A stretch of DNA of 64,000 nucleotides from Flavobacteriales bacterium (GTDB lineage Bacteria; Bacteroidota; Bacteroidia; Flavobacteriales; Flavobacteriaceae), in NCBI GenBank assembly GCA_027066365.1, contig JAMONV010000004.1, positions 62,001 through 126,000 on the forward strand, written 5' to 3'. Under the pieces are notes generated by a model. That model was not told where the DNA came from. It saw nothing but the letters and a program-made list of their open reading frames with translations, and did not search any database. Positions 28,977 through 64,000 of this stretch are shown here, piece by piece. The position numbers were made by a program, and so were the translations under genes. Numbering within the stretch: position 1 is the stretch's first letter; each line of letters starts with the position of its first letter.

Positions 28977-29711
28977 TTAATCATCGGTTAAATAATCCTT
29001 AAAATCATCAATCATATTAATTATTTGTGATGTTTTTTCTATTTCTTCCTGAATTTCAGACTGTTGATTGTTTATTTCTTTTAGTTTATCTTCGTCTTTA
29101 ATTCCAGACTTCATTTTTTCTAAATTTCCATATTGTTTAGTCAAATCCAAAAGCTTATTTTGATTTTCTTTCAAATTATTATCCAAAATATTCATAATCT
29201 TTTTTTGGTCATTTTCATCCATCATATTATATATTAATTTTGCTAATGGCTTTCCGGAAGTAGCCCATGTATATGAACCTTCCATAGCAAGAACTGCTTC
29301 TGCTCCAATGCCTACATTAGCGGATGCTCCGGTTTGATCTAATTTATAAGTCTCTACATTTATGGTTCTATGTATGGAACCCGAATATTTTAAGCCAGGA
29401 GTTATTGATCCAACATATGAAAATCCCCAACCTTTCACATCATCTATACTTGCCGTAGGATAGAAAGTGCCTCCAACACTTGCAGAAGCACCAATAGCCA
29501 ATCCGGCACCACCGCTCACTGAACCGAATACTCCAATATCATTATTTTTAAAGTCCAAATAAATGCCGGATGAACCGGAAATGGTCAAAAGTAATGAACC
29601 TCTCACACCTCCATTCAATAAAAGAACTTCCAACCCTTCCAATTCCCTTGCATCAATCACCCTGTTCTCACTGTAATTATACACGCCGTTATACGGATAC
29701 TTCTCCGCCAA
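28977..29711 (-). CDS. Rhs/YD-repeat protein, C-terminal tip cut off by a frameshift
   Basis: Reading frame of 244 residues with no start of its own (the first codon is TTG). It begins AEKYPYNGVYNYSENRVIDARELEG, the conserved sequence just after the RFMSVDPL hyperconserved motif of Rhs proteins. The core gene reaches that point in another frame, so this is the broken-off C-terminal tip. After residue 25 the sequence is glycine-rich with alternating hydrophobic residues (GSVSGGAGLAIGASASVGG), then a charged helical tail (140-244) rich in Lys, Glu and Asn. No toxin family recognised. Confidence 0.7.
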   Translation of the reverse strand: MAEKYPYNGVYNYSENRVIDARELEGLEVLLLNGGVRGSLLLTISGSSGIYLDFKNNDIGVFGSVSGGAGLAIGASASVGGTFYPTASIDDVKGWGFSYVGSITPGLKYSGSIHRTINVETYKLDQTGASANVGIGAEAVLAMEGSYTWATSGKPLAKLIYNMMDENDQKKIMNILDNNLKENQNKLLDLTKQYGNLEKMKSGIKDEDKLKEINNQQSEIQEEIEKTSQIINMIDDFKDYLTDD

Positions 29712-32452
29712 AGGTCCACACTCATAAACCGCCCGATGGCGTAATTATAATTGCGGTATTTAAAGCTGTCCCAATTTAAATCCAAGTCCGTTTGGCGCTC
29801 TTGTTCTTGATACCAATACTTATACCGCCCCGCCACCACTTGGGGTGTAAAGATTTTGTCTTCTTCGGCTTCGGTGTATTGGATTTCGTGTTTTTCTTCG
29901 TTGTAGCCGCGGTGCAGGAGGCCGAAGGGGTAGTAGTGGCGTTCTTGTAAAATTACGGCTTGTCCGTTGTCGCGGGTGAGGCTCATACGGAGGTTGCCCA
30001 AGTGGTCGCGTATGTTGGTTACGTAGGCGAACTTGGGCGGGTCGCCGCTTGTGATGCCTTCGGGATATACTGCGCTTACGTAACCTTCGGCGGTGGGGAT
30101 GAACATGAGCTTCCAATCGTATTGCACCTCACCAATATAATCAAATTCGTATTGATATCCAAACAGGTAGGCGGTGCCTTTTTTGCCGGTGGGAGTTTCC
30201 ACGTATTTATACCATTTGTTGCCGAGGGCGTCGTAGGTGAAGGAAATTTCTCCGTTATTAAATCTTACCTGTGTAGGCAGGTTCATGTGGTTGTAGCGGA
30301 TTTCGGTGATGCCCTTGTTGTTGTCCGTAATCATATTACCGTCGGTATCGTAGGTGTAGTCGTTGAGGCTGTGGTTGGGGTCGTCTTTGAATCCGAACTC
30401 GTTGGCGGTGTGGTCGCGTACGCCGAGGAGGCGGTTGGGGTTGGCGGGGTCGTATTTGTATTGCAAGTTGTCGATGTCAATGGTTTGGTTTTGCAGTTCG
30501 AACAATCCCCATCGTTCCACGTCCTGTATGTTGCCTTGCTTGTCGTAGGAGAGGGCCACGTCGTAGGATCCTTGAAGGTTGCGGTTTTCGTTGGTGAACT
30601 CGGCGCTTGTGAGGCGGTTCAATTTGTCGTATTGATAGTCGTATCGCCGGGTTTGGTTGTCGGACGCGCTCCACCAACGTTGGGCGGAGATGTTACCGTT
30701 ATACAGGGGTGTTTGTCCGTTGTCGTAGAGCAGTTCGAGTTCGAACATTTGGCTTTGCTGACGGGTAAGCCATCCGCGGATATTGTATTGGAAAGAGACG
30801 GATTGGAGGTTGTTGTCGATATTTTTTTGGCGGATTTTACCGAGTTCGTCGTAGGAGAATTCGGCCAGTATGGTTTCCACATGATTTTCCACCCTGTGGC
30901 GGTGGCGTAGCAGACGTCCTTGAGGGGTGTATTCCAAGTCTTCTACGGTTACGATTTCGTTCAGTTCCGGTGTCATTCGGTGGCAGGTTTTGGTTTGAAG
31001 GATTTTTCCTTCAAAGTCGGTGGCGTGATGTTGTTTGTGGTATAGGTTGCCCCGGTGTTTTTCCGTTCCTATTACGGCTGCGGTGGGGTCGTCTTTGTAG
31101 AAGGTGAGTTCGGTGTAATGATCGGTACTATATGCGGATTTCAAAATCCTTACCCATTGCCCGGTGGTTAGGCCTTTGAGATTTCCGTTTGCTCCGGTGC
31201 GGACGGGTTGGTTAAGGATTTGGGCGGGGATTTGGTTTTGCGGCCAAAAGCGGTAATCGTCATAATAGGTTATAGTCAAAATATAATAATCCTTATCGGG
31301 GAAAGATTCGGAGGTATAATAGAAATCAATATTTTTTTCTTGCATGGGGTCCGATACGGGGGCTTCCGATATCTCATGGTTGTTGATCGTGCGCTGGATT
31401 TCCATTCGGGTTCGGGCGTTTACCGTGGCGGGTTTGAACACGGTCATAATGGGGCGGTTGAGTCCGTCGTATTTGGTGATCAACCAGCCTTCGTTGGAGG
31501 TATTGGTAAAAGGTGATTTCACCGGCCCTGTGGCGCGCAGGCGGTCTAATTTGTCATAGGCCATATATTGCCAACGTATGCCGGGTAGTTTTTTGGCCAC
31601 GAGTCGGTTACGGCTGTCATACACATATTGGTAGCAGAGGTTATCCAGCACGCTTTGGGTTATGTTGCCTTCGGCTGCCAAGGGCGGGATGACATAAGTG
31701 AGGTTTCCGTATCGGTCATATACGTAGTAGGTATCCACGTTACCCTGTGCGGTGGTTTGTCGTTTGAGGACGATTCGCCCGTCTTTGTCTTTGAATTCGA
31801 TGGAGTTTCCGGTTCCGCCCAAGTTGTTGTTTTCGTCGGCGGTGACGAATTTGTAGAGGCTTTGCGGGGGGTAATATCCGCGGTCGATGAGGGTGGGGAT
31901 GTATCGGTCGGTGGCGGCGTTGTATGTTTGGCTGACGTCGAACATTCGGACTTCGTTGGCGGTATTGGTGTCGTACCGGTATTTGATTTCGTGTCCGTTG
32001 CCCAAGGCCCAGGTGTCGCCGGGTGCGGCTTGGAGGAGCGGTCGGTTCAGGGGTGAATTTTCCAAGAGGGTTTCGGTATAGCAGACGGAAGTTCCGAAAC
32101 GGTTTTGGTAGTAATTTTGAGTTTGGATTCCGGCATTCGGCACAAAATCCAATCCGGGTGTGGGGTCGGGATAGGGGAGGAATTTTTTGGTTTCGCGGCC
32201 GTATGCATCATATTCGTGATGCAGGACGATGTTGTGTCCCGAGGCGCTCATGCTTTGTTGGATTTCCTGTTCGGGGCGTCCCAAGCCGTCGTAGTATTTG
32301 ACGGTAACGAAGGCTTGGTTTACGGATGGCGAAGCAATGGGTTGCGTGGTGGGGACGCGATAGATTTTTTCCTTGATCCAGTTGTGGTCGGGGGATTGGG
32401 CGTGCAGGAAAATCGAAAGAAAAACAAACGAAATGATAGCTGTGGTTTTCAT
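29657..32452 (-). CDS. YD-repeat/Rhs-family secreted protein core (DUF6443 type), frameshifted at its 3' end
   Basis: 931 residues with a Sec signal (MKTTAIISFVFLSIFLHAQ) and a DUF6443-like N-terminal region (VTVKYYDGLGRPEQEIQQS). YD repeats follow throughout, such as YDRYGNLTYV, YDKLDRL and YDTDGNMITD. The C-terminal Rhs core ends NYAIGRFMSVD. After D the natural sequence should read PLAEKYP, but one C is missing from a CCC run (+ strand 29713-29714), giving LWRRSIRI and an early stop. Rhs cores form a cocoon that encloses a C-terminal tip, which may be toxic; here core and tip are in different frames. Confidence 0.85.
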   Translation of the reverse strand: MKTTAIISFVFLSIFLHAQSPDHNWIKEKIYRVPTTQPIASPSVNQAFVTVKYYDGLGRPEQEIQQSMSASGHNIVLHHEYDAYGRETKKFLPYPDPTPGLDFVPNAGIQTQNYYQNRFGTSVCYTETLLENSPLNRPLLQAAPGDTWALGNGHEIKYRYDTNTANEVRMFDVSQTYNAATDRYIPTLIDRGYYPPQSLYKFVTADENNNLGGTGNSIEFKDKDGRIVLKRQTTAQGNVDTYYVYDRYGNLTYVIPPLAAEGNITQSVLDNLCYQYVYDSRNRLVAKKLPGIRWQYMAYDKLDRLRATGPVKSPFTNTSNEGWLITKYDGLNRPIMTVFKPATVNARTRMEIQRTINNHEISEAPVSDPMQEKNIDFYYTSESFPDKDYYILTITYYDDYRFWPQNQIPAQILNQPVRTGANGNLKGLTTGQWVRILKSAYSTDHYTELTFYKDDPTAAVIGTEKHRGNLYHKQHHATDFEGKILQTKTCHRMTPELNEIVTVEDLEYTPQGRLLRHRHRVENHVETILAEFSYDELGKIRQKNIDNNLQSVSFQYNIRGWLTRQQSQMFELELLYDNGQTPLYNGNISAQRWWSASDNQTRRYDYQYDKLNRLTSAEFTNENRNLQGSYDVALSYDKQGNIQDVERWGLFELQNQTIDIDNLQYKYDPANPNRLLGVRDHTANEFGFKDDPNHSLNDYTYDTDGNMITDNNKGITEIRYNHMNLPTQVRFNNGEISFTYDALGNKWYKYVETPTGKKGTAYLFGYQYEFDYIGEVQYDWKLMFIPTAEGYVSAVYPEGITSGDPPKFAYVTNIRDHLGNLRMSLTRDNGQAVILQERHYYPFGLLHRGYNEEKHEIQYTEAEEDKIFTPQVVAGRYKYWYQEQERQTDLDLNWDSFKYRNYNYAIGRFMSVDLWRRSIRITACIITVRTG

Positions 32453-32474
32453 ACTCGTTTATTCTGTGATTATG

Positions 32475-34046
32475 TTAGTTTTTGATGATTTTAATGCTGT
32501 TTTCCATGTCGTCGGCAGTGACTTTTACGATGTAGATTCCGGGCCGGAGTCCTGTCGTTTTCAGGGGGATGATGCGTTGGCGCCGGATGTTGAATTCATC
32601 CAAAATATGTCCGTCCAAATCGCTCAGGATGAGGTGTCCTTTTTGGTATTTTCGTCCGATGACGATGCGTGTGTAATCTCCCGCCGGGTTGGGTACGGCT
32701 TCCAAGGGCAGGGGTTTGCGCAGCGGTTTTTCCGGGTCGGCAATTTTCATAATCAGGAAGTCGGCATCGGCCGTAGGGCTGTTCCACGGTTTGGTGGTGC
32801 CCGTCAGGACGTATCCGCCGTCGCGTAGGGCTATTATGCGTTGCAACACATCCTTGCCCGGCGTTCCGAAGAACTTTTCCCAACGTTTTTTTCCCTCGGC
32901 ACCGGTTTTGAGGAGCCAAAAGTCGTCGTTACCTTTACCGCCGGGTGTTTTGATTTTTTTCAACGGGCTGCCGGTTCGTGTGGCATATCCGCCCAGAATG
33001 AGGCTTCCGTCGTCGTTGACCAGGATGTCTTGTAATATGTCTTTGTGCGAGCGGTCGAAAGTCTTTTTCCAAAGCAGGTTTCCCCGTTCATCCCATTTGA
33101 CCAATGCCATGTCGGTTTGGGATTTGCCTTGGTTTTCTTTGGTTACAAACCCTCCGGCGAGTATTCGGCCGTCTTTGGATACGGCCAAGGCGTAGAGTTC
33201 ATCGTTTCCTTCGCCTCCGAATTGCCGTTGCCACAGTATGTTGCCTCCGGGTGACAGTGCGATGATCCACCAATCGTTGGCGCCTTGGGTATCATACGTT
33301 TTGTTGTCTCCGGCCTGTGAATTGGAATAACCGGCAAGGATGATTTGTCCGCCGGGCAGTTCCACCAATCCGGTGAGTATATCGGCCTGCTTGCCACCCA
33401 GGGTTTTTTCCCATTGTAGCCGGTAATTCGCATCTAATTTGATGATCCAATAATCGGCATTGCCGTAGGAGGGGCTGTGTTTGAGTATAACGCCGGGCAT
33501 ACGTGCCAGGCTGTCGGCACTTTGAATGCTGTCGGAATAGCTTACGGCACCAATCAGGTATCCGCCGTCGCGAGTGCGTAGCACCTTGACGGGATAATCG
33601 TTGGCTGCGCCGCCCAATACGAGTTGCTTGGTTTCCTTGCCGGTGATGTCTATTTGTATGAGCCAAATGTCGTCTTGGCCGATGTGCGGCACTTTTTTGT
33701 ATTTTCCTTGTCCGCTACTGCTGGATGCCGCCAGCATATAGCCGCCGTCTTGTGTGTTGGCAATGCAGCGGAAGATGTCATTTCCTTTGCCGCCCCATAC
33801 GCGCGTCCATTCTTTGCGGCCGTCTTCGTCGATTTTGGTTACAAAGGCATCGAACATGCCCAAATGTTCCGGCACGTCACCCGAAGCGGAAAAACTGCCG
33901 CCCACCATCAGGAATCCGTAGTCCAGGGTATATAATCCGTCGTAGAGGTATTCGGCGTGTTTGCCGCCCGTTTGGGTTTGCCATATTTTTTGCTGGGCGG
34001 GGAGCGGGGTCGTCATTAGCAAGAGAATCCAAAATATTTTTTTCAT
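32475..34046 (-). CDS. T9SS-sorted protein with propeller-like W/GG repeats
   Basis: 523 residues: Sec signal (MKKIFWILLLMTTPLPAQQ), then about seven repeats built on WxxxxGGxxxD and DGGYxxxG (for example WGGKGNDIFRCIANTQDGGYMLA), which suggest a beta-propeller-like surface domain. The last 75 residues (AVPNPAGDYTRIVIG... PGIYIVKV) form a T9SS type A sorting domain. It sits between the two YD-repeat proteins, 22 bases from one and 18 from the other, so it is part of the same operon. It may be a surface partner of the Rhs system. Confidence 0.8.
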   Translation of the reverse strand: MKKIFWILLLMTTPLPAQQKIWQTQTGGKHAEYLYDGLYTLDYGFLMVGGSFSASGDVPEHLGMFDAFVTKIDEDGRKEWTRVWGGKGNDIFRCIANTQDGGYMLAASSSSGQGKYKKVPHIGQDDIWLIQIDITGKETKQLVLGGAANDYPVKVLRTRDGGYLIGAVSYSDSIQSADSLARMPGVILKHSPSYGNADYWIIKLDANYRLQWEKTLGGKQADILTGLVELPGGQIILAGYSNSQAGDNKTYDTQGANDWWIIALSPGGNILWQRQFGGEGNDELYALAVSKDGRILAGGFVTKENQGKSQTDMALVKWDERGNLLWKKTFDRSHKDILQDILVNDDGSLILGGYATRTGSPLKKIKTPGGKGNDDFWLLKTGAEGKKRWEKFFGTPGKDVLQRIIALRDGGYVLTGTTKPWNSPTADADFLIMKIADPEKPLRKPLPLEAVPNPAGDYTRIVIGRKYQKGHLILSDLDGHILDEFNIRRQRIIPLKTTGLRPGIYIVKVTADDMENSIKIIKN

Positions 34047-34064
34047 AGCGAGATTTTTACGGAT

Positions 34065-36686
34065 TTATTGGTCTTTGTAATGATATTCGTATTCTTTGAT
34101 GATGTTTCCGTTGCTGTCTTTGATGAATTTGAGGCGGTTGAAGGCGTCGTATTCGTAGTAGAAAATGTCTCCTTTTTCATCTACCGAAATGCTCAATCCT
34201 ACCAAGGGTTTATGAACATATAGTTCAATCGATAGTCCCTTATGGTTTGTTATGAGGATGTCGCGTAATTGTAAAAGTAAGTTTAACACCTCGTTGTTTG
34301 AAACGGTTTCCCAATTTAAACGGTTTATTTGATTTATAATTCCGGCGGGTAATTGTTCGTAGGAAATTCCTTTAATTTTTGCAACGGGCAAGCTTTGTTT
34401 ATATCCCCATATATATACCAAAGGAGTGCCGTTTCCCAATTTCATTTCAAGAGGATTGCCTTTAGCGTCGTACCGGGTAAATCTTGCTCTGACTTCCAAG
34501 GGATTATTTCCTTTGGAAAGTTCGATTCGTTCTGGAACTACAATTTGATTGAATGGTAAGTAAGGAGGAGAAATGTTTTGAAAAAAGTTTTTCTTTGTGG
34601 AAAGCAACCTATTGTCCACAAATGTTTTGCTGACTATTGGGGTACTAATTTTATGTTGACGTAACATTACACAAATTGGGTCGTTTTCATTGCCCGGTGT
34701 CCTGCAATAATTAATGTTATTAGGCGAATGAATATATTCCGTTTCGGTTATGCGGGTTGTGGGATCGTGTAGTATTTCTTTTTCGATTCTCGACGGCAAA
34801 CCGGCCGAACCGTTATCATAATAATAACGTTCTATGGTTTCGATATTACCATTTGAAAAATATTCAACTGTACGCTTTTCTTTAATATTAAACCAGTATG
34901 AACCTGTAGAATATATTCCTATTTCTTTATGAAATGATACAGGATCATTTGCGCAACTTCTCGCTCTGATTTTTTGTCTGTGTAAGTAATTATATGTAAC
35001 ATGTGATTTTAACGTATCTAAAAAATAAGAATATGATTTTTTTTGAAGTATATTTAAGTTAGAATCGAAAACCCGCTCTTGCAATAAGGTGCCGGCATTC
35101 CAATCGTTATTTGTAGAAGTTCTTGTTCCAAATTCAAACAATGGAAAAATATTACGCTTTATAAACCTTTTTTCCACGCCTCCTTGTTCAAAATGATCTC
35201 CTCCGTAACTTATGGTTACATATTCGTAATTTTGTCTATCGATGGTATATTTGGTATCCGTTAGTCCTGAAAGATATACATCTGTGTAAGCCACGTCAAC
35301 GGAACAAACAGTGCCGGGACAAGTCAAATACTGCACACTTGTGTTTTCAAGTAGTAAAGGTATGGGCCTTACCAAATTAATGGATTGAGACCGGTTAATA
35401 TTTGGCAAGTCGGTATAATAGTATCGTTTTACACGTGGCGAGGTGTCGGAAGAATTTTTATAAGTATAAATACGCTTGATGCGTAGCGGTACCTTTTCAT
35501 ATTCAAATTCATCGATGCCGCCGGTGGGATAAATGATTTTCCGAAGCGCACCTTTCACCGCATAATTAAAATCACTGCTGCGATCAACAATCCTGTCGGG
35601 AAAAAAATTTTCCAACCCCGGAATTAAACCGTTGTTATCTAATTTCCCGTTGTAATATCCGTAAACATCAACGGCGTAAAATCCATGGGTTGGTATCGGG
35701 AATCCTTGCATGTCATAATACTCGAAACGGTAGGCATTGTCGCCGAAATTAACTTCCGTTAGAAATCTGTTGTCATAATATGAAAACGTGATTTCTTTAA
35801 CCAATGTCCCTTGAAAATTATAAACTTTCATTAAGCTCAGTTTCCCGGCATTGTTATAAATAAATCTTATGCTATCACCGCGAGAGGACGTAATTCTTTT
35901 GACTCTTAGATAGAAATCTTGTTCTACTTCAATATTTTCTCTGGGTATAAACCGATTCCATATTACTCGCTTCAATTGGTATTCACAAACATCGGATGAT
36001 GGATTTATTCCGACTTTTTCTTTTATTTCCGAACGTGAAAAGCCTTCAATACTATTATAAACTTGATGAAGCTGAGGATTTACAATGACAGTATCGTAAT
36101 CAAAAATTAAAAAATTTCCTTTAGTGTCTCTAACTTCTCTCAAGTAAAATTCTCGAGGATATATGCGAAATCCTATAATTTTATAATTTCCAAAGCCAGT
36201 ATAACCGGTACCTCCAAATGTAAATTTTGTCCCGATTTCATCGAATAAAGTAATTTCTCCAATCGTATCATTCAAATTATTGTAATTAATTTTTAAAGTT
36301 CTATTTTGCTTCACTAACCGTGCTTGAAAATTTTCATCCAGAAAAAAATTTCCCGTAAAGCCGAACGATTTACACCTGAATAGATCCACTTCGGAATCAT
36401 TTCCTACCAGCGTTATATTCCTCACGATTTCTTCGTAAGTTGCCGAATCGGAAATAGCGGAATGATACCAATTCGCATCATAATGTATGGCTTGACCCGG
36501 AGTTAATTCATCCGGCATATCATTTAACTCTCTTACAATCAGTCCTCCCGCTTCCAATTGCCAATTATACCCTGTTAGGCCGGAAGGCTGACCTACTTTT
36601 ATTCCGTTTCCTTGGTAAGTCAAAGTAATAGGCAATGTTATTTCACCTATGCTTAACGTAAATAAATTTATACCCGGCATAATCAA
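34065..36686 (-). CDS. YD-repeat protein of the Rhs locus, main reading frame
   Basis: 873 residues read from a TTG at 36686. Conserved pattern LTYQGNGIKVGQPSGLTGYNWQLEAGGLIVRE near the start, then strand-rich YD-like units (VREVRDTKGNFLIFDYD, FFYYEYDAFNRLKFIKD) and the end NIIKEYEYHYKDQ. Proteins of this kind lie upstream of DUF6443 Rhs proteins in flavobacteria. The natural N-terminus continues upstream in the same frame to about 36900, including SKAQ of a signal peptide, but no start codon is available there because of a frameshift. See the separate 5' feature. Confidence 0.78.
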   Translation of the reverse strand: MIMPGINLFTLSIGEITLPITLTYQGNGIKVGQPSGLTGYNWQLEAGGLIVRELNDMPDELTPGQAIHYDANWYHSAISDSATYEEIVRNITLVGNDSEVDLFRCKSFGFTGNFFLDENFQARLVKQNRTLKINYNNLNDTIGEITLFDEIGTKFTFGGTGYTGFGNYKIIGFRIYPREFYLREVRDTKGNFLIFDYDTVIVNPQLHQVYNSIEGFSRSEIKEKVGINPSSDVCEYQLKRVIWNRFIPRENIEVEQDFYLRVKRITSSRGDSIRFIYNNAGKLSLMKVYNFQGTLVKEITFSYYDNRFLTEVNFGDNAYRFEYYDMQGFPIPTHGFYAVDVYGYYNGKLDNNGLIPGLENFFPDRIVDRSSDFNYAVKGALRKIIYPTGGIDEFEYEKVPLRIKRIYTYKNSSDTSPRVKRYYYTDLPNINRSQSINLVRPIPLLLENTSVQYLTCPGTVCSVDVAYTDVYLSGLTDTKYTIDRQNYEYVTISYGGDHFEQGGVEKRFIKRNIFPLFEFGTRTSTNNDWNAGTLLQERVFDSNLNILQKKSYSYFLDTLKSHVTYNYLHRQKIRARSCANDPVSFHKEIGIYSTGSYWFNIKEKRTVEYFSNGNIETIERYYYDNGSAGLPSRIEKEILHDPTTRITETEYIHSPNNINYCRTPGNENDPICVMLRQHKISTPIVSKTFVDNRLLSTKKNFFQNISPPYLPFNQIVVPERIELSKGNNPLEVRARFTRYDAKGNPLEMKLGNGTPLVYIWGYKQSLPVAKIKGISYEQLPAGIINQINRLNWETVSNNEVLNLLLQLRDILITNHKGLSIELYVHKPLVGLSISVDEKGDIFYYEYDAFNRLKFIKDSNGNIIKEYEYHYKDQ

Positions 36687-55779: not shown

Positions 55780-57999
55780 ATGAAACACTTGAAATGGTTA
55801 GCCCTCACAGTTGTGGGCGTGGCTGTTTTCCTGTTGGGAACACCACGATTGCAAGCCCAGAAGACGGTGGATGGCGTTATGAAAGAACGCGGTCTGACCG
55901 AGAAAGACAAGCTCGCCGCGGTTAAAACCTTCATGCCGCGTGGAGGTCGCGACGAGTATTTTGGTATCGTAGGAACGGGTAACTCCGGAACCATGATCGT
56001 TTACGGCGTTCCCTCCATGCGTATTTATAAATATGTGGGTGTGTTCTCACCCGAACCTTGGCAAGGTTATGGATATGACGACGAATCGCAATTGTTGTTG
56101 AAAAAATCCTCCTTGGATAACCGCATTCCTTGGTACGGTGACATGCGATTCCCCGCATTTTCCGAAACCAACGGAAAATATGACGGTAAATATGCATTCT
56201 TTACCGACGGTGCCAACGCACGTATTGCACTTTTGGGTTTGGATGACTTTGAAACCAAACAGGTTTTGTCCAACCCTATCATGAACAACCTCTTCCCTCA
56301 AGCAGTGGTAACGCCCAATACCGAATACGTAATCCAAACGGGTCAATATCCGCATCCTTGGGATAACCGCGTTACCGATATGGCTCAGGCCAAAAACGCA
56401 TTGACTTTCTGGAATGTTCACCGTATCGAAAAAGAAGGTGAACATAAAGGACGTATCATCAAAGAAAAATCCTTTGCAGTAGAATTTCCCGCCTATCAAT
56501 TGGATTACAACGATGTCGGAAAAGGCGATACCGACGGATTATTCTTCGGATTGGCATTCAAAGACGGCAAATCTTATGTATATGTGATTGACTACAAAAA
56601 AGCCGTTGCCGCCGCCAAAAAACAATTCAACGACTTTGACTATGTACCTTTCGACCAAATCAAAGGAGCGGTAAGCTTTATCGAACTGCCCGCCAAGGCC
56701 AATACCGTAAAAGCCAGCCCCGACGGAAAATATATCGTAGTGGCTGCCGATAACGTTTTGGTATTGGACGGTGCCAAAGTAAAATCCAATTTGGGCAAAA
56801 ACTATAAAGCAGCCGATGTAACCCACAAATCCATAGCTATCGGAAAAGGCGTGGTGGACGTAACTTTCGATTACCGCAAAAACATTGCTTACGCATCGGC
56901 ACACGACGACAGCAAAATCGTTCGTTTCGATTTTGATAAAGGAGTGAAAAAAGATGAAATAAAATTGGACTTCAAACCTTCCTACTTGACCACTCCGCAA
57001 GGTTTGTCCGGCGAACCTCATTCCAATTATTTGATTGCCGTTGACAAGGAAGCATACTTGAAAAATCTTCCGAAAACGGGTCCCGTTCGTCCGAGCATTC
57101 AACATTTGATCGATATTTCCGCCGACGACGAAATGGTCGACCTCTACACCATGACATTGCCGCAAGCTAATGTTTACGGCAACGTATTGATTTTACGTAC
57201 CACCATTAAGCCGATTATTCGTTATCCTACCGGAACCAACTCCCGTACGGGTGAACCTTCACCTTTCCGTGCATTCGCCGGTCAGGAAAAAGTGGAACGT
57301 AAAGGAAACCGCGTACACGTGTTCGGAACATTGATTCGTTCTCACATCACACCCGAAATCGTGGAAGTGAATGAAGGTGACATTGTAACCTTCCATTTGA
57401 CCAACCTCGAACGAGCCGAAGACGAAACTCACGGTTTCACTATCGATACATACGGTAAACACGGTTCATTTGAACCCGGTAAAACCGCTTCCTTGACGTT
57501 TGTAGCGGATCGTCCGGGCGTATTTCCTTATTACTGTACAGAATTCTGTTCGGCACTCCACCTGGAAATGGAAGGTATTCTGTTGGTTCGTCCTAAGAAT
57601 AAAAAAGTGGATTTGGGTAGTAAATTCAGCACTTTGCAAACCGGAACCGGTGGCAAAGAAGCTTTGACCAAAGAAGATTTGGCCAAGTATAAGAAAGACT
57701 ACGAAGAAAAAATCAAAGTTATTAAACAAACTGCCGATGTTATCAACGGTGTGGTTAAATACTTGAAAGAAAACCACTATGAAAAATATCCTTATGTAAA
57801 AGCTTTGGTTGAAGATGCCGTAGACCAGCTGAATAAAGGAAAATTTGCCGAAGAAAATTATAAGAAATACGCTAAAGAAGGCAAGTGGAAAGATGCTTTC
57901 CTCTGGGCGGAACAATATTGGCAATATCAAGTGAAAGCGGCCGACGTAGGTCTTCGTGCTAAGAAATTGTTAGACGAAAAATTAGGTAAAGAAGAATAA
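55780..57999 (+). CDS. NosZ-family protein with intact CuA site but no CuZ ligands (proposed CuA subunit)
   Basis: 739 residues. Sec signal to about residue 26 (FLLGTPRLQA/QK), a propeller-like domain (about 30-485), a cupredoxin domain (about 500-605) and a charged helical tail (625-739). The cupredoxin keeps every CuA ligand: H551, then C586, E588 (backbone), C590, H594 and M597 in YYCTEFCSALHLEM. The seven histidines that bind the catalytic CuZ cluster in NosZ are all replaced; aligned with the next gene the positions are R123, F124, F172, N308, D360, Y402 and Y466. Yet the frame, length and landmarks (VPSMR, NPI...TPNTEY, NYLIAVDK) are kept and nothing is frameshifted, so this does not look like decay. 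It cannot reduce N2O alone by the known mechanism. It most likely passes electrons to the neighbouring CuZ protein. The next gene starts 6 bases on. Confidence 0.88.
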   Translation: MKHLKWLALTVVGVAVFLLGTPRLQAQKTVDGVMKERGLTEKDKLAAVKTFMPRGGRDEYFGIVGTGNSGTMIVYGVPSMRIYKYVGVFSPEPWQGYGYDDESQLLLKKSSLDNRIPWYGDMRFPAFSETNGKYDGKYAFFTDGANARIALLGLDDFETKQVLSNPIMNNLFPQAVVTPNTEYVIQTGQYPHPWDNRVTDMAQAKNALTFWNVHRIEKEGEHKGRIIKEKSFAVEFPAYQLDYNDVGKGDTDGLFFGLAFKDGKSYVYVIDYKKAVAAAKKQFNDFDYVPFDQIKGAVSFIELPAKANTVKASPDGKYIVVAADNVLVLDGAKVKSNLGKNYKAADVTHKSIAIGKGVVDVTFDYRKNIAYASAHDDSKIVRFDFDKGVKKDEIKLDFKPSYLTTPQGLSGEPHSNYLIAVDKEAYLKNLPKTGPVRPSIQHLIDISADDEMVDLYTMTLPQANVYGNVLILRTTIKPIIRYPTGTNSRTGEPSPFRAFAGQEKVERKGNRVHVFGTLIRSHITPEIVEVNEGDIVTFHLTNLERAEDETHGFTIDTYGKHGSFEPGKTASLTFVADRPGVFPYYCTEFCSALHLEMEGILLVRPKNKKVDLGSKFSTLQTGTGGKEALTKEDLAKYKKDYEEKIKVIKQTADVINGVVKYLKENHYEKYPYVKALVEDAVDQLNKGKFAEENYKKYAKEGKWKDAFLWAEQYWQYQVKAADVGLRAKKLLDEKLGKEE

Positions 58000-58005
58000 T
58001 CCAAA

Positions 58006-60450
58006 ATGAAAATCATTATGAGAAACAAACATAAAATCTGGTTCCGTATTCTTCCGGTAACCATAAGCCTTTTGGCTCTTGCTTTCTTCGGCACTAGCTG
58101 TGAAAAAGGCAAGAAAGCCGAAGGCGGAAAAGAACAAACCAGCGCGGTGGGTGCTCCCCGCGGTAAAGAATCTTTCCAAGACGTGGTGAAACGTCGCGGG
58201 TTGACTGAAGACGACGTTTTGGCAGCCGTCCAAACCTATACACCCGATAACCTGAAAGACGAAGGTGTCGCTGCCAACTCGGGAGGTCAGGAAGGTAACT
58301 TGCCTACCTATGTTTTCCCTTCCATGCGTTTGGTGAAGTATACACCCATTAACACCCGCCAACCCTATGCAGGTTTCGGATTTTCGGAAGAAACCTATAA
58401 ATTATTGAAAGACGGTTTTATTGATGGAGCCGAAATATTGTGGGGTGATACCCACCATCCCGGATTCTCCGAAACCGACGGTGTTTATAACGGTAAATGG
58501 TTAGCAATTAACGATAAAGCCAATCCACGTGTTTATATTGTAGATTTGCGCGATTGGTATGTCAAACAAATCGTTCAAAACCCCATTTTCCGTTCCGATC
58601 ACGGTGGTTGCTTCTTTACACCCAATTCCGAATATATCATGGAAGCCTGCCAATATCCGGCGCCGTTTGACCGTAAATTCCACGAATTGACCGAAGAAAA
58701 TTTCAAGAAATATTGGCGAGGCGGTTTGACCTACTGGAAATTCGATAATGAAACCGGTAAGGTGGATTTGTCCAAATCCTTCACTTTTGAATTCCCGCCT
58801 TATACACAAGACCTTTCGGATGCCGGTAAGGCGATGTCGTATGGATGGGGCTTCACCAACTCCTTCTGTTCGGAAATGTATTTCGGTGGTATTGAAGCCG
58901 GACGTCCTCCGTTTGAAGCCGGATGTTCTTCTCGTGACGTGGACTACCTGCACGTGACCAACTGGAAAAAAGCCGAAGAACTCTTCAAAGCCGGTAAAAT
59001 CGGTAAGAAAGTTATCAACGGAATGCACGTAATTACCATTCCCGAAGCCGTTAAATACGGATTGCTCTACTTGATTCCCGAGCCCAAGTCGCCTCATGGT
59101 GTGGATGTGAGTCCTTGCGGTCAATACATCATTGTTGCCGGTAAATTGGATTCGCACGCTTGGGTGTATGACTTCAAGAAAATCCAAAAAGCCATCGAAG
59201 AAAAGAACTTTGAAGGCAAAGACGAATTCGGTATTCCCATTATTGCTTTGAAAGCCGCTTTGCATAAATCTGTAGAAGTGGGGCTCGGTCCTCTGCATAA
59301 CCAATTCGATAGCCGGGACGGCGTGGTTTATACTTCCATTTATGTGGATTCCCGTGTAACCAAATGGGATTATAAGAGTGACGACCCGGAAGGTAAAAAA
59401 TCGGTTTTGGCGTATGTTCCTTCTCACTATAACATTGGTCACTTGGTATCATATCACGGTGATACTAAGAAACCGCGCGGTAAATACTTAATCGCACTTA
59501 ACAAACTATCTATTGACCGTTTCAACCCGGTGGGTCCTTTGCATCCTCAAAACCATCAGTTGATTGATATCGCATCGGATCAACCGCGTATTATTTATGA
59601 CATGCCTTTGCCTATGGGTGAACCGCACTATACGGCTATGATCGGTCGTGATGTATATGAAGCCAATACATTGGATGTTTATCCGGTTGGAACCGACATT
59701 ACAACCATGAGCAAATCGCCGTATGCCGTGGGTGAAGGTGAAGAAAAGGTCGAAAATAAAGGCAATACGGTTGAAGTATTCGGTTATATTAAAGACGGAA
59801 AAGTAGTTCCCGGAGATATTAACGTAAAACAAGGACAAGATGTAATCATTCACTTAACCAACTTGGGACAAACCCCGTTTGATCATTACGTATACGAAAT
59901 AGCATCCTACGACAAGATGTATCCTTATGCGCCGGGTGAAACGGCAACATTGAAATTCAATGCCGAAAAGGCGGGTGTATATCCGATCTTGTTGGATGCA
60001 CAAAACAGCCCGAGCAAACGACAATTAGCCGGTTACTTGACGGTGAGCTTCGATCAAGCGGCCGAAGCCAAGCGAGTTCAAGCTTATGCTGACCGTATCA
60101 AGTGGGACCAAAAAGTTCAAGCCTTCAAACCTTCGTCCATCGAGCTTAAGAACATGCTTCCGGGTGAGATTGAATTCTTGAACTACGGATGTAATGCTTG
60201 TCACAAGTTCGGTGAAGACTTCAACGGTCCTGACCTGCTCATGGTTCACAAACGCCGTAGTAAAGAATGGTTGAAGGATTGGATTCTCCACACCAAAAAA
60301 CATTACAACGATCCCGATATCAAAGCTTTGGCTCAGAAATTCAAACTCTATATGCCTGATCAACATGTAGATCCGAAAGATGTGGATAAGCTTATCGAAT
60401 ACATGAAAGCTAAGTCCGAGCAATACGTAAAAGAACAATCCGGAAAATAA
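58006..60450 (+). CDS. nosZ: NosZ-family N2O reductase with all CuZ ligands, no CuA ligands, C-terminal cytochrome c (proposed catalytic subunit)
   Basis: 814 residues. Lipoprotein-type signal ending GTSC (C32); starts at 58006 and 58018 are both possible. All seven CuZ histidines are found: H150 and H151 (GDTHHPGFSET), H199 (SDHGG), H364 (SPHGVD), H431 (GPLHNQFD), H479 (NIGHLVSYHGD) and H541 (GEPHYT). The second-sphere K500 and E539 are also present. The cupredoxin domain (about 585-680) aligns with the preceding protein without gaps across the CuA loop, but C586, C590, H594 and M597 become L663, N667, K671 and L674; H551 aligns with Y628, next to H627. A class I cytochrome c domain follows: CNACH at 729-733, probable axial M783. 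It would receive electrons at the heme but lacks its own CuA relay. It depends on NosD-type assembly, encoded downstream. Confidence 0.9.
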   Translation: MKIIMRNKHKIWFRILPVTISLLALAFFGTSCEKGKKAEGGKEQTSAVGAPRGKESFQDVVKRRGLTEDDVLAAVQTYTPDNLKDEGVAANSGGQEGNLPTYVFPSMRLVKYTPINTRQPYAGFGFSEETYKLLKDGFIDGAEILWGDTHHPGFSETDGVYNGKWLAINDKANPRVYIVDLRDWYVKQIVQNPIFRSDHGGCFFTPNSEYIMEACQYPAPFDRKFHELTEENFKKYWRGGLTYWKFDNETGKVDLSKSFTFEFPPYTQDLSDAGKAMSYGWGFTNSFCSEMYFGGIEAGRPPFEAGCSSRDVDYLHVTNWKKAEELFKAGKIGKKVINGMHVITIPEAVKYGLLYLIPEPKSPHGVDVSPCGQYIIVAGKLDSHAWVYDFKKIQKAIEEKNFEGKDEFGIPIIALKAALHKSVEVGLGPLHNQFDSRDGVVYTSIYVDSRVTKWDYKSDDPEGKKSVLAYVPSHYNIGHLVSYHGDTKKPRGKYLIALNKLSIDRFNPVGPLHPQNHQLIDIASDQPRIIYDMPLPMGEPHYTAMIGRDVYEANTLDVYPVGTDITTMSKSPYAVGEGEEKVENKGNTVEVFGYIKDGKVVPGDINVKQGQDVIIHLTNLGQTPFDHYVYEIASYDKMYPYAPGETATLKFNAEKAGVYPILLDAQNSPSKRQLAGYLTVSFDQAAEAKRVQAYADRIKWDQKVQAFKPSSIELKNMLPGEIEFLNYGCNACHKFGEDFNGPDLLMVHKRRSKEWLKDWILHTKKHYNDPDIKALAQKFKLYMPDQHVDPKDVDKLIEYMKAKSEQYVKEQSGK

Positions 60451-60703: not shown

Positions 60704-61603
60704 ATGAAAAATCAAAATAAAGTATTTGGAATTCTGTATCGTATTTTGGCTCTTATCGGGCTGGGTTTGATTATTGCGACTTATTTTGTTCCCGAATGGT
60801 GGGTGGCATTGCAAAGTCACCAATACCCCAAGTCGATGTATCCGAAGGGAATTCGGATTGAATTTCGTTACAATGGCGTTTATAACGGTTGCCAAGGCGT
60901 TCGTGAGCGTGAAGAGCTGGCTATGGATGCCGGTGCGGATTGTTTGATCGAGATGAATAAGATCAACCATTTTATCGGTATGTATCCTATCGTTCAAGGG
61001 GTAAACGATTGGTTGGAGGTTTCGGAGAATAGATTTACGTTTGAAGATACGCCTACGTTGGAAAAAATGCTCAAATTGAATCCCGGTATCATGAAAAAAG
61101 TGGATGACCATACGTTGGAATTAACCAACGATACCATTATGAAGATTCATGCGCCATATCCGCTGTACGCTGCCGATCGCATTCCCGATGCAAAAATTCC
61201 TGGCGCATTGAAGACCTTGGATAAAATTATGCGCATTTCTCATTATTTCTTTGTTCTTTTTGCCATTTTAGGGTTGGCGTTTATTTTCGTTGGCAAAAGA
61301 AAGCTGACTTGGGCGGCAGTTTTAGCGGCATTAGCTCCGATATATTTTCTGGCTATTTACATTTATTACCTTTGGTGGTATGGTCACCATTTGGGTTTGC
61401 ACGGAGGCGGTGCGTTTAGTGGTATCAAACCCTTTATGCCAACGGTTTTGGGAGAAGGAAAAGTGGCGCAGTTTACCACCGAATCTTATCCCGATATAGG
61501 GTTTTATTTGGGTATTGCAGGAATGATATTAATGTTTATTGCCATTGCATTCAAAACCAAATATGTCGGAAGTTCCCGCAATGAATCGGGTTTTAACAAT
61601 TAA
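60704..61603 (+). CDS. Membrane protein of the nos cluster (NosB position)
   Basis: 299 residues with four membrane helices: one at about 8-30, then a periplasmic domain of about 140 residues with two cysteines (C63, C80), and three helices at about 178-196, 203-226 and 265-283. A histidine-rich loop HHLGLH (H228, H229, H233) follows the third helix. In clade II nos clusters a polytopic protein called NosB lies between nosZ and nosD; I assign this by position, since I cannot compare the sequence. It may carry electrons or copper to the reductase. It has its own promoter. Confidence 0.7.
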   Translation: MKNQNKVFGILYRILALIGLGLIIATYFVPEWWVALQSHQYPKSMYPKGIRIEFRYNGVYNGCQGVREREELAMDAGADCLIEMNKINHFIGMYPIVQGVNDWLEVSENRFTFEDTPTLEKMLKLNPGIMKKVDDHTLELTNDTIMKIHAPYPLYAADRIPDAKIPGALKTLDKIMRISHYFFVLFAILGLAFIFVGKRKLTWAAVLAALAPIYFLAIYIYYLWWYGHHLGLHGGGAFSGIKPFMPTVLGEGKVAQFTTESYPDIGFYLGIAGMILMFIAIAFKTKYVGSSRNESGFNN

Positions 61604-61604
61604 A

Positions 61605-62924
61605 ATGAAAAAGGTTTTTACATACCTTATATTATTATTTGTATTGCGCATATCCGCCCAGGTGGGCGGATATGCGCCGGGATTAAAAGATAGTGTTCCG
61701 GGCGCACCGGAAGGTGCGCCCCGGATGGCTATCCAGCCATTGCTCGATAGTTTGAAACCGGGTGATACATTGAAATTGAAGCCCGGCTTTTATGAAGGGC
61801 CGGGGTTTATAACCGTCCCCAACGTGGTTATTGACGGCCAAGGTCATGCGACGGTTTCGGGTATGCATAAGCGTTCGGTTTTGTATATTAAAGCCGAAAA
61901 TGTAACCGTTAAAAATTTGCATTTGATTGATTCGGGCAATTCGCCCGACAAAATCGATTGCGGGGTGAAAGTGGTGAAATCAAACGGCTTTAAGGTCATA
62001 AACAATCGTATGGAAAATACATTATTCGGTGTGGATGTATATTGGTCGGAAGGTGGGGTAATTTGGCATAATGATATAACATCCATAGCTAAAAACACGA
62101 AAGGGATGAAGGGCGATGCCATTCGTTTGTGGTGGTCCAAGCATAATATGGTAAAAGAAAATTACTGGCATCAGGTGCGGGATATGGTGGTTTGGTATTC
62201 GGAAGATAATGACTTTATCGGAAATTATGGAGATGGGAATCGGTATAGCATTCATTTCATGTACTCCCATAACAACCGGATTTCGTTTAATTATTTTATT
62301 AATTCGTCGGTAGGTGTTTTCTTGATGTATAGCGAAGAGACCATTATGAACAATAATGTTATAGAAAATTCGCAAGGTGTAACGGGCATGTGCTTGGGAA
62401 TGAAAGAAACTTCGTCCAATCAGATTTTGGATAACCGTTTTTTATATTCCGCGCGGGGGATTTATATTGATGTTTCTCCGTTTGTTCCTTGGAAGAAAAA
62501 TACGATTACGGGAAATGAAATTGCCTTTTGCGGCACGGGTATAGAGTTTTTGAAAGATCAGGAGGGTAATTTGTTCAGTGACAACCTTTTTCATGATAAT
62601 TTACAACAGATTTATATCCAAGGAGGCGGCACCGCCAACCGTAACAAATGGATTCACAACTATTGGGACGATTATGAAGGATTTGATAAAGACGGTGATA
62701 ATATAGGTGATTTTCCATATCGATTATACGAGTATCACGCGCGTTTGTGGCGCTTCAATGAGAACGTGAAGTTTTTCTACGGCTCGCCTATTTTGTCCTT
62801 GTTGGATTATTTGGAGAAATTGGCACCGTTCTCAAAACCGCAATTTGTTTTGAAGGACAAAAAGCCGATTTTCAACATGGAAAAATATATGAAGGAGAAT
62901 AAGAAATTTGAAAAATTATATTGA
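61605..62924 (+). CDS. nosD: NosD, periplasmic copper-cluster assembly protein
   Basis: 439 residues from ATG 61605, one base after the previous stop; the frame is open 66 bases upstream but MKKVFTYLILLFVLRISAQ is the signal peptide. The rest is a right-handed beta-helix of short turns with Asn ladders (NRMENTLFGVDVYWSEGGVIWHND, NNNVIENSQGVTG), as in NosD/carbohydrate-binding-like proteins. C-terminal NKWIHNYWDDYEGFDKDGDNIGDFPY is typical of NosD. With NosF and NosY it is needed to build CuZ, and the neighbouring catalytic protein keeps the CuZ ligands. Confidence 0.9.
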   Translation: MKKVFTYLILLFVLRISAQVGGYAPGLKDSVPGAPEGAPRMAIQPLLDSLKPGDTLKLKPGFYEGPGFITVPNVVIDGQGHATVSGMHKRSVLYIKAENVTVKNLHLIDSGNSPDKIDCGVKVVKSNGFKVINNRMENTLFGVDVYWSEGGVIWHNDITSIAKNTKGMKGDAIRLWWSKHNMVKENYWHQVRDMVVWYSEDNDFIGNYGDGNRYSIHFMYSHNNRISFNYFINSSVGVFLMYSEETIMNNNVIENSQGVTGMCLGMKETSSNQILDNRFLYSARGIYIDVSPFVPWKKNTITGNEIAFCGTGIEFLKDQEGNLFSDNLFHDNLQQIYIQGGGTANRNKWIHNYWDDYEGFDKDGDNIGDFPYRLYEYHARLWRFNENVKFFYGSPILSLLDYLEKLAPFSKPQFVLKDKKPIFNMEKYMKENKKFEKLY

Positions 62925-62925
62925 T

Positions 62926-63741
62926 ATGTCCACCGGAAAACAACAATTGAACAGGCGTCAATTCCTGAAGGCATCGGCAGCGGCGGTGATTACGTTGTCG
63001 GCGGTAGGGAGCTTGGCGTTTTGGTTAAAAGACAAATCGGACGTAAAGGATAAGGGATTTTTGCGTCCGCCGGGAGCCATTCCCGAGGAAGATTTTCTAT
63101 TTGCCTGTATTAAATGCGGGTTGTGCGTTCAGATTTGCCCGGTTCATGCCGTGAAGTTAGCCGATTGGGATACGGGTTTGTCCTACGGCACACCGTATAT
63201 CGATCCCAACGTTCAAGCTTGTGATTTTTCATGTGATTCGATACAATGCGCGGAGACTTGTCCCACGTCGGCATTGCATTTTCCGGTGTTTCGCAGTGCC
63301 GGCGAAAAGGCGGTGGAAGAATTATATAAGCAATATCCCAATCGCAAATTACCGCCGAATGTAAATCCGTTTGTGGTGCAAATTCATGCCATGAAACGTG
63401 CCTACAAATTAGGGGTGGCTAAGGTAAATGTGCAACAATGTTTGGCATACCACGGTCAAGGTTATAAAGGTCCTTTAACCAAGCATAGAGCGAAGATGCG
63501 TCCTCCCGGAAAAGGCGACCGGATTTATACGGATGAAATCACCGTAGACAGGAAAATATGCGACCTTTGCGTGGTATATTGTCCGTTGCAAGAGGACGCC
63601 ATTGTATTGAAAGACCAAGGCGGAGGAAAATTCCTACCCGAAGTTTTGGACGGATGTGTAGGATGCGGTGTATGTCAAATGGTATGCCCTACGGAACCTA
63701 AAGCAATTGTGATAGAACCGGAAGAAAACCCTAAAGTTTGA
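62926..63741 (+). CDS. nosG: NosG-like ferredoxin with Tat signal
   Basis: 271 residues from ATG 62926; a TTG at 62908 gives six more residues and has a GGAG at 11 bases, so that start is possible. Twin-arginine motif NRRQFLKASAAA, then four cysteine clusters: CIKCGLCVQICP, CDFSC...CAETCP, CDLCVVYCP and CVGCGVCQMVCP. The order matches NapG/NosG electron-transfer subunits. It probably takes electrons from the quinol side through a NosH partner toward the reductase. Starts one base after nosD. Confidence 0.85.
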   Translation: MSTGKQQLNRRQFLKASAAAVITLSAVGSLAFWLKDKSDVKDKGFLRPPGAIPEEDFLFACIKCGLCVQICPVHAVKLADWDTGLSYGTPYIDPNVQACDFSCDSIQCAETCPTSALHFPVFRSAGEKAVEELYKQYPNRKLPPNVNPFVVQIHAMKRAYKLGVAKVNVQQCLAYHGQGYKGPLTKHRAKMRPPGKGDRIYTDEITVDRKICDLCVVYCPLQEDAIVLKDQGGGKFLPEVLDGCVGCGVCQMVCPTEPKAIVIEPEENPKV

Positions 63742-63745
63742 AATT

Positions 63746-64000
63746 ATGGCATTCATATATGATTTTTTACACGGAGATAAAAGGCGTAAACCCTTGCCTG
63801 CCAAGAAAAAAGACGAGCTTCCCCACGTGCGTCTGGGAATGACCTATAAAGAATGGCACGATCAAGCCAAAGGAAGACATACCTGGCGAAACCGCCGCTG
63901 GGCCTTTTTGATTTTTATCAATTTGTTATTTGTTGTTTCTTTTACGTTTGATTTGGGATTATTGGAAGGTTCATTGAGCGGGTCGCGTTTGCTGGGATTG
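63746..64000 (+). CDS. NosH-like membrane protein, N-terminal part (cut by window end)
   Basis: 85 residues are visible. The start ATG 63746 follows nosG by four bases. It begins MAFIYDFLHGDKRRKPLP, then KEWHDQAKGRHTWRNRRWAFLIFINLLFVVSFTFDLG, a first membrane helix. In clade II clusters the gene after nosG is the NapH-like quinol dehydrogenase nosH, which fits position, but the Fe-S motifs would lie beyond the window. Confidence 0.6.
   Translation, partial: MAFIYDFLHGDKRRKPLPAKKKDELPHVRLGMTYKEWHDQAKGRHTWRNRRWAFLIFINLLFVVSFTFDLGLLEGSLSGSRLLGL

Follow-up and report, generated by a model that had tools for sequence, protein, structure and literature searches.

Can a nitrous oxide (N2O) reductase be divided between two proteins, such that the CuA site lies on one chain and the CuZ site on the other? 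The question is raised by two adjacent genes of the NosZ family, here called A and Z, in a stretch of 64,000 nucleotides (the window; contig JAMONV010000004.1, positions 62,001 to 126,000, forward strand) of the Flavobacteriales bacterium assembly GCA_027066365.1. An initial annotation, made from the letters of the window, proposed that the two genes have lost opposite copper sites. The comparisons described here make it likely that A and Z are the unlike subunits of one N2O reductase, with the A:Z complex and its activity deduced from sequence. The two genes and the parts that carry or have lost copper ligands are as follows; aa stands for amino acids.

55780..57999, plus strand: gene A, a NosZ-fold protein of 739 aa with CuA only (open reading frame, TIGR04246 match, ligand columns, structure model); its parts in order are an N-terminal signal-type helix, a degenerate propeller, an intact CuA cupredoxin and a C-terminal helical domain
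57292..57591, plus strand: cupredoxin domain of A, aa 505-604, with H551, C586, E588 (backbone position), C590, H594 and M597
58006..60450, plus strand: gene Z, a NosZ-fold protein of 814 aa with CuZ only and a C-terminal cytochrome c (open reading frame, profiles, fold)
58453..58458, plus strand: first two CuZ histidines of Z, H150 and H151 (alignment)
59626-59628, plus strand: codon of H541, which with H199, H364, H431 and H479 makes up the remaining CuZ histidines of Z (alignment)
59749..60045, plus strand: copper-less cupredoxin domain of Z, aa 582-680, with the fold kept in the model and the CuA ligands gone

Ligand columns were read from an alignment of A and Z with 58 canonical NosZ. 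The CuZ columns correspond to H129, H130, H178, H326, H382, H433 and H494 of P. stutzeri, a numbering obtained from mutant titles among the Foldseek rows and by counting along the residue alignment; for CuA, we assumed the ligand numbers and roles of known NosZ. In the seven CuZ columns A reads RFFNDYY and Z reads HHHHHHH. In the CuA columns (H,C,E,C,H,M) A reads HCECHM and Z reads YLANKL. Thus A lacks seven of seven CuZ histidines, Z lacks five of five CuA side-chain ligands, and neither polypeptide holds the ligands of both sites. Both halves of the initial annotation are thereby borne out, since the alignment places no His in any CuZ column of the first protein, which has all CuA ligands, and no Cys, His or Met ligand in the CuA columns of the second, which has all seven CuZ histidines. 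The gap of 6 bases between the genes and the absence of a frameshift are likewise as described there: both open reading frames lie on the same strand and are complete, without an internal stop. A frameshift, or one gene split in two, was considered and ruled out, as both chains are full-length NosZ folds.

The two proteins are 31% identical over a 644-column alignment, and both match NosZ models along their full length. With TIGR04246, the model for clade II NosZ, A scores 396 bits, below the cut-off of 625, and Z scores 643 bits, above it. Pfam assigns nos_propeller, Cupredoxin_1 and Cytochrom_C to Z. AlphaFold2 models, built from input alignments of 42 and 43 rows (each including four of the single-gene relatives described below), have a mean predicted local distance difference test score (pLDDT) of 82.1 for A and 81.8 for Z, and a predicted template modelling score of 0.74 for both. 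All 50 among the Foldseek matches listed are NosZ structures, for A and for Z alike. In the VIA comparison, protein Z gives a VIA Z of 46.8-49.8 with NosZ chains; other propellers rank below the NosZ rows and show the fold only. A seven-bladed propeller with a cupredoxin fold is thus found in both proteins by AlphaFold2 and Foldseek, and for Z also by VIA.

The search for the same pair in other genomes, which the initial annotation had called for, shows that the split NosZ is a conserved two-gene family. Contigs of GTDB representatives were scanned with A, and of 478 candidates the best 80 loci were kept; in a search seeded in this way Z genes without an A would have stayed unseen. The 80 loci consist of 73 A-type loci, from 71 metagenome-assembled genomes (MAGs), and seven single-gene NosZ with both sites. 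The A-type labels include Flavobacteriales, Lutibacter, Saprospiraceae, Bacteroidales, Melioribacteraceae, 'Chlorobiota' and one 'Cloacimonetes' MAG. A Z of at least 450 aa directly follows A in 67 of the 73 loci. In the remaining six (L077, L090, L107, L112, L114 and L127) Z is cut short or falls outside the retrieved stretch, and at least a piece of Z is present in all 71 genomes, although in G713 it amounts to merely 35 positions at a contig end. The ligand counts cover NosZ frames of 450 aa or more, hence 67 rows for Z.

The CuA site is complete, in all six positions, in 73 of 73 A proteins. Among their CuZ columns no His is found in 60, one in 13 and two in none; all seven columns are covered in 70 of the 73, the other three (L126, L128 and L131) being cut and without two or three columns. 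Conversely, the seven CuZ histidines are present in 66 of the 67 Z proteins, the exception being L118, which has a gap and undetermined bases, and none of the five CuA side-chain ligands is found in any of the 67. A His stands in the second CuA cysteine column in 32 of the 67 Z, and a Cys in the backbone column in five, but these never make up a ligand set. Three former CuZ columns of A are nearly fixed as other residues (R in 67/70, D in 73/73 and Y in 73/73). Two positions ahead of the last CuZ His, 67/67 Z have a Glu (E539) and 73/73 A have Asn; a Lys, K500 of Z, is common to both proteins. A complementary pattern held by 73 of 73 A and 66 of 67 long Z is neither chance nor the accident of one assembly.

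Both genes are under purifying selection among close relatives. In nine close pairs, with A distances of 1.5-8%, dN/dS (the ratio of nonsynonymous to synonymous substitution rates) is 0.040-0.074 for A and 0.025-0.121 for Z; some of these ratios are rough because dS is near or above 1. Column conservation is distributed differently in the two proteins. In the 67 pairs its mean is 0.929 for the cupredoxin of A versus 0.749 for its propeller, and 0.819 for the propeller of Z versus 0.753 for its cupredoxin. Retention was counted in 18 A and 18 Z rows, at non-ligand columns that are conserved in two-site NosZ (70 in the propeller and 17 in the cupredoxin). A retains 36/70 propeller and 16/17 cupredoxin columns, and Z retains 60/70 and 9/17. 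When only the nearest two-site relatives are used as reference, the counts are 84/171 and 33/36 for A, and 130/171 and 14/36 for Z. Residues present in A but lost from Z include D548, Y585, F589, L593 and E596, beside the CuA ligands. Thus A and Z each best preserve the half that has its own copper site, while the other half is relaxed and its fold kept.

Outside the two NosZ domains, three further parts of the proteins bear on how such an enzyme might work:

58099..58101, plus strand: lipobox-type cysteine of Z, Cys32, with Cys in this column in 67/67 Z
60172..60423, plus strand: c-type cytochrome domain of Z, aa 723-806 (PF00034, 26.2 bits, cut-off 21.3)
60190-60204, plus strand: haem motif CNACH of Z, aa 729-733, within the PF00034 domain
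57670..57993, plus strand: C-terminal helical domain of A, about aa 631-738 (model and alignment), without CxxCH

A loose lipobox-like pattern is found in 67/67 Z by pattern match, with no signal-peptide program involved, and Z is probably a lipoprotein. The haem motif CxxCH is present in 64 of the 67 Z, the other three ending at contig edges, and is found in 0/73 A, 0/7 single-gene two-site relatives and 0/58 canonical NosZ. A second CxxCH lies near the C-terminus in eleven Z with lengths of about 895-917 aa (L075, L079, L081, L082, L085, L088, L092, L109, L122, L126 and L128). Z is distinct from the haem-fused cNosZ, which is one chain with both copper sites and a cytochrome c, as Z has the haem domain and no CuA site. 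The helical domain of A has only weak matches in Pfam, far below cut-off, and is common to the seven two-site single-gene relatives. The initial annotation contained neither the conserved family nor the haem domain and lipoprotein-type N-terminus of Z, the helical domain of A or the operon downstream.

The pair appears to be the only NosZ of its genome, a draft of 2.03 Mb in 64 contigs that is 98.99% complete. Profile searches with TIGR04246 matched only A and Z there, and not the complete canonical nosZ that the initial annotation named as counter-evidence; the L-NosZ model (NF052460) found no other locus. In other genomes TIGR04246 does pick up, at 454-491 bits, NosZ whose CuA motifs are of the clade I type, so that such a gene should have appeared in the window genome. 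As a control, the model gave matches in 6 of 14 well-known genomes, above cut-off in none. A canonical NosZ hidden elsewhere in the window genome was considered, and is rejected by these profile searches. Among the 71 A-bearing MAGs, whose completeness is not given, a two-site NosZ was not seen in 67.

The A-Z pair is uncommon in even genome samples, for which few candidates were scored per genome. It was found in 1/100 genomes of the family (the window genome itself), 2/196 of the order and 1/395 of the phylum sample (again the window genome). In the class of the Melioribacteraceae MAG the count is 1/149, which is that MAG, and in the phylum of the 'Cloacimonetes' MAG it is 1/2.

Some variants of NosZ loci were seen during the searches. 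More than one A/Z set is present in some MAGs (L075 and L080 in G663; L123 and L125 in G710), and G661 and G662 have additional A or Z pieces. NosZ homologues in frames of 1018-1028 aa, longer than usual, occur at L181 (G744) and G723:C170:15193-16956, with 454-498 bits. A Bacteroidota NosZ at G620:C144:4139-5957 lies in two overlapping frames; this arrangement, which is not a split of the A/Z type, is probably due to a frameshift in a single gene or to an error in the sequence.

To place the pair, a quick tree was made from 61 chosen rows with the ligand columns removed and with Shimodaira-Hasegawa-like approximate likelihood ratio (SH-aLRT) support, without bootstrap. It comprises 18 A, 18 Z, seven single-gene, 11 canonical, six clade I and one Thermomicrobium sequence; Wolinella-type cNosZ and DPANN proteins are outside it. 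A forms one clade and Z another, each with support 100, and their inner order is largely alike by eye. Both fall within one branch of Sec-type NosZ (support 99), together with Thermomicrobium and the seven single-gene relatives, and A is closer than Z to these two-site relatives. Descent from the canonical flavobacterial NosZ is rejected, as A and Z branch apart from it and from the canonical NosZ of Bacteroidota.

Duplication followed by subfunctionalisation, as suggested in the initial annotation, fits the tree: constraining A and Z together is not rejected by the approximately unbiased test (p-AU 0.583) and gives a log-likelihood 4.8 above that of the quick tree. Duplication is not proved, however, since constraining Z with the single-gene relatives is not rejected either (p-AU 0.487). 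The pair probably arose in one sub-branch of Sec-type NosZ via tandem duplication and complementary loss, and a single tandem duplication is the simplest account, though two genes that had already diverged may have been brought together. The presence of A-type labels across several phyla suggests that the pair spread as a two-gene cassette, although MAG labels are rough.

The single-gene relatives (L133-L136 and L138-L140) have both copper sites and the A-type helical domain, and belong to the Sec-type sub-branch with Thermomicrobium nearby. Their labels are Sulfuricella, Bradyrhizobium, Alphaproteobacteria and Deltaproteobacteria, which by label are Pseudomonadota, Myxococcota ('Deltaproteobacteria') or unplaced.

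How the two chains might work together can be modelled on the known homodimer. There, according to excerpts from PMC11573801, each protomer's cupredoxin rests on its partner's propeller, and CuA together with the partner's CuZ forms the active site. A and Z would pair head to tail like NosZ protomers, such that the cupredoxin of A with CuA lies over the propeller of Z with CuZ and forms one productive active site. The reverse contact, of the copper-less cupredoxin of Z on the copper-less propeller of A, would be structural. Because CuA would come beside CuZ only where the cupredoxin of A is on the propeller of Z, only one of the two sites of a head-to-tail A:Z dimer would be productive, the other being dead. 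Copper would be loaded as CuA in A and as CuZ in Z, and Z would be anchored by its N-terminal lipid. The haem of Z is likely the electron entry point, and electrons could pass from menaquinol via NosG/NosH to the haem c of Z, to CuA of A, to CuZ of Z and to N2O. The haem may feed CuA inside the dimer, feed a neighbouring dimer, or reach CuZ directly; the last option is the main rival. The pair is probably an asymmetric obligate heteromer, consisting of a CuA subunit and a lipid-anchored, haem-bearing CuZ subunit, with one productive CuA-CuZ site and a dead mirror half, and would be the sole N2O reductase in uncultured, mostly Bacteroidota-related bacteria.

Several points weigh against this heteromer. 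In a head-to-tail pair the haem of Z would be tethered to Z's own cupredoxin, away from the CuA of A, so that the proposed path would call for movement of the haem domain or for a second dimer. A Z:Z dimer could also form and take electrons from its own haem. The CuA loop of A (aa 589-596) has a pLDDT below 50 and is modelled with low confidence. Pairwise distances of A and Z are correlated (r 0.895 in 67 pairs), but this is expected from shared ancestry alone. The A-bearing genomes are MAGs by their record titles, and four of the 71 (G665, G667, G672 and G714) also carry a two-site NosZ of more than 900 bits. Finally, in excerpts from PMC10936187, N2O consumption was not significant when three CuA-only genes of DPANN archaea were introduced one at a time, without their five-histidine neighbour, into a strain deleted for nosZ.

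One rival explanation is that Z works alone or as Z:Z, with haem c replacing CuA as the direct donor to CuZ, and that A is a separate soluble CuA carrier or side protein. The distribution of CxxCH is in its favour, since the motif is nearly general in Z (twice in 11 proteins) and absent from the nearest two-site relatives and from canonical NosZ; in this sample the gain of haem accompanies the loss of CuA. Yet a long Z adjoins A wherever the locus is neither cut nor incompletely retrieved, in a sample admittedly seeded with A. Moreover A is under purifying selection, and retains a whole NosZ propeller and the conserved residues around CuA, neither of which would be required of a free carrier. 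Independent action of Z is on these grounds unlikely.

A second rival is that A became a pseudo-NosZ, acting as a regulator, scaffold or copper chaperone for Z, with its CuA serving in copper delivery instead of electron transfer. The near-invariant residues that A has of its own at three former CuZ columns are what a repurposed domain might show. But the six CuA-site positions are invariant in every A and the cupredoxin is its best conserved part, and Z would be left without a source of CuA, though known enzymes have CuA next to CuZ; such a role for A is very unlikely. That the two genes are decaying duplicates or a MAG artefact, i.e., two broken and functionless NosZ copies, is scarcely credible. 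The genome is indeed a draft of many contigs, but dozens of MAGs share the long open frames, the nine close pairs have dN/dS below 0.13, the ligand losses are fixed and complementary, and the conservation of the pair already contradicts decay. The heteromer of A and Z remains the preferred reading.

No description of a split NosZ was found in open-licence PubMed Central (PMC), a coverage that leaves subscription papers and bioRxiv outside; the excerpts seen of PMC10359470 and PMC10732223 contain nothing of the kind, and a term search of PMC11148229 gave no match. In 15 sludge MAGs with two nosZ genes, these were never 45 genes or fewer apart, according to PMC11409646.

The pair resembles clade II (Sec-type) NosZ in its fold, in the seven CuZ histidines of Z and the full CuA set of A, and in an operon with nosD, nosG, nosH and ABC-transporter genes, and both genes belong to the Sec-type lineage, near the Thermomicrobium NosZ and the single-gene relatives. 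It differs from clade II NosZ in that both sites are on each chain in 58/58 canonical NosZ from the window's family and order and in 7/7 single-gene relatives. Like the cNosZ of Wolinella succinogenes (nosZBDGC1C2HFYL), it has a cytochrome c fused to a NosZ and an operon of the nosB/D/G/H/F/Y type, but the A-Z operon lacks the separate nosC1/C2 cytochromes of the Wolinella layout, as given in excerpts from PMC8139620. Furthermore, the haem of the pair sits on the chain that lost CuA, which is a difference from cNosZ, a type absent from the tree.

The nearest precedent found is the group of CuA-only NosZ-like proteins of DPANN archaea from oxygen-deficient zones, in which, according to PMC10936187, one protein keeps CuA and lacks CuZ. 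In two DPANN MAGs a short neighbour upstream has five conserved histidines (PMC10936187). The DPANN proteins, compared by their description in that source, are shorter and branch between Cox2 and clade II NosZ, whereas A is of full length and inside Sec-type NosZ; their short five-histidine neighbour, known there from two MAGs only, contrasts with the full NosZ with seven histidines that is Z. L-NosZ ('clade III', NF052460) is likewise a diverged NosZ-like protein with a cupredoxin, but of another propeller type, and NF052460 scores A at 77 and Z at 89 bits, with a cut-off of 700. A Nitrospirota NosZ-like clade with a lactonase-type propeller, found beside nosDFLYX in the excerpts from PMC11033732, is in our inference the same group as L-NosZ. 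The A-Z pair probably carries out NosZ chemistry in a subunit layout for which no description was found.

In a split enzyme CuA and CuZ could be made, removed and titrated independently, which would be of use for the study of copper-site maturation and of CuA-CuZ electron transfer. The pair also matters for surveys. Since A is below the TIGR04246 cut-off and Z fails a check for CuA, surveys that need both motifs on each chain, or that apply the cut-off, would miscall these organisms. Such miscalls would affect counts of N2O sinks in marine and vent-like habitats, the habitat of many of the MAGs being guessed from isolate labels.

The A-Z pair is the head of a nos operon of the clade II type, which continues past the end of the window:

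60704..61603, plus strand: hydrophobic protein of 299 aa in the position of Wolinella nosB, without a family match and named by operon position only
61539..62924, plus strand: NosD (TIGR04247, 360 bits, cut-off 300), with the true start probably 3' of the listed TTG
62908..63741, plus strand: NosG-like iron-sulphur protein of the NapG/MauM family with a signal of the twin-arginine (Tat) type; NapG-type models are below their curated cut-offs
63746..64000, plus strand, continuing past the window: NosH-like protein of the NapH family (full-length NapH model, 233.6 bits, cut-off 213)
past the window: ABC ATPase, NosL-like lipoprotein (motif only), ABC-2 permease, pentapeptide protein and YceI

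With NosD above its cut-off and an ABC ATPase and ABC-2 permease downstream, the genes of a nos maturation operon are in place. The protein at L169:3343-3936, for which Pfam and NCBIfam gave no match, resembles NosL by motif. Where the sequence extends 3.3 kb or more from the start of Z, a homologue of the 299-aa protein is found 3' of Z in every locus (55 of 55); where it extends 5.9 kb or more, both this protein and NosD have homologues in 42 of 43 loci.

Other respiratory genes were noted in the window genome. No NirK above cut-off was found in it. On contig C58 (L219:555-3208) a gene of the COX1 family, 206 bits, has as neighbours a single-haem protein of 144 aa and a GvpN/CobS-like ATPase; this cluster resembles a nitric oxide reductase cluster, which NCBIfam did not confirm. 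A fusion of cbb3 oxidase subunits I and II is present at L218. Within the window itself, a run of large, repeat-rich proteins that by eye look like YD-repeat/RHS proteins occupies positions 29657-36686 on the minus strand, and the highest G+C of the window, 0.50-0.52, is found at positions 30001-34000.

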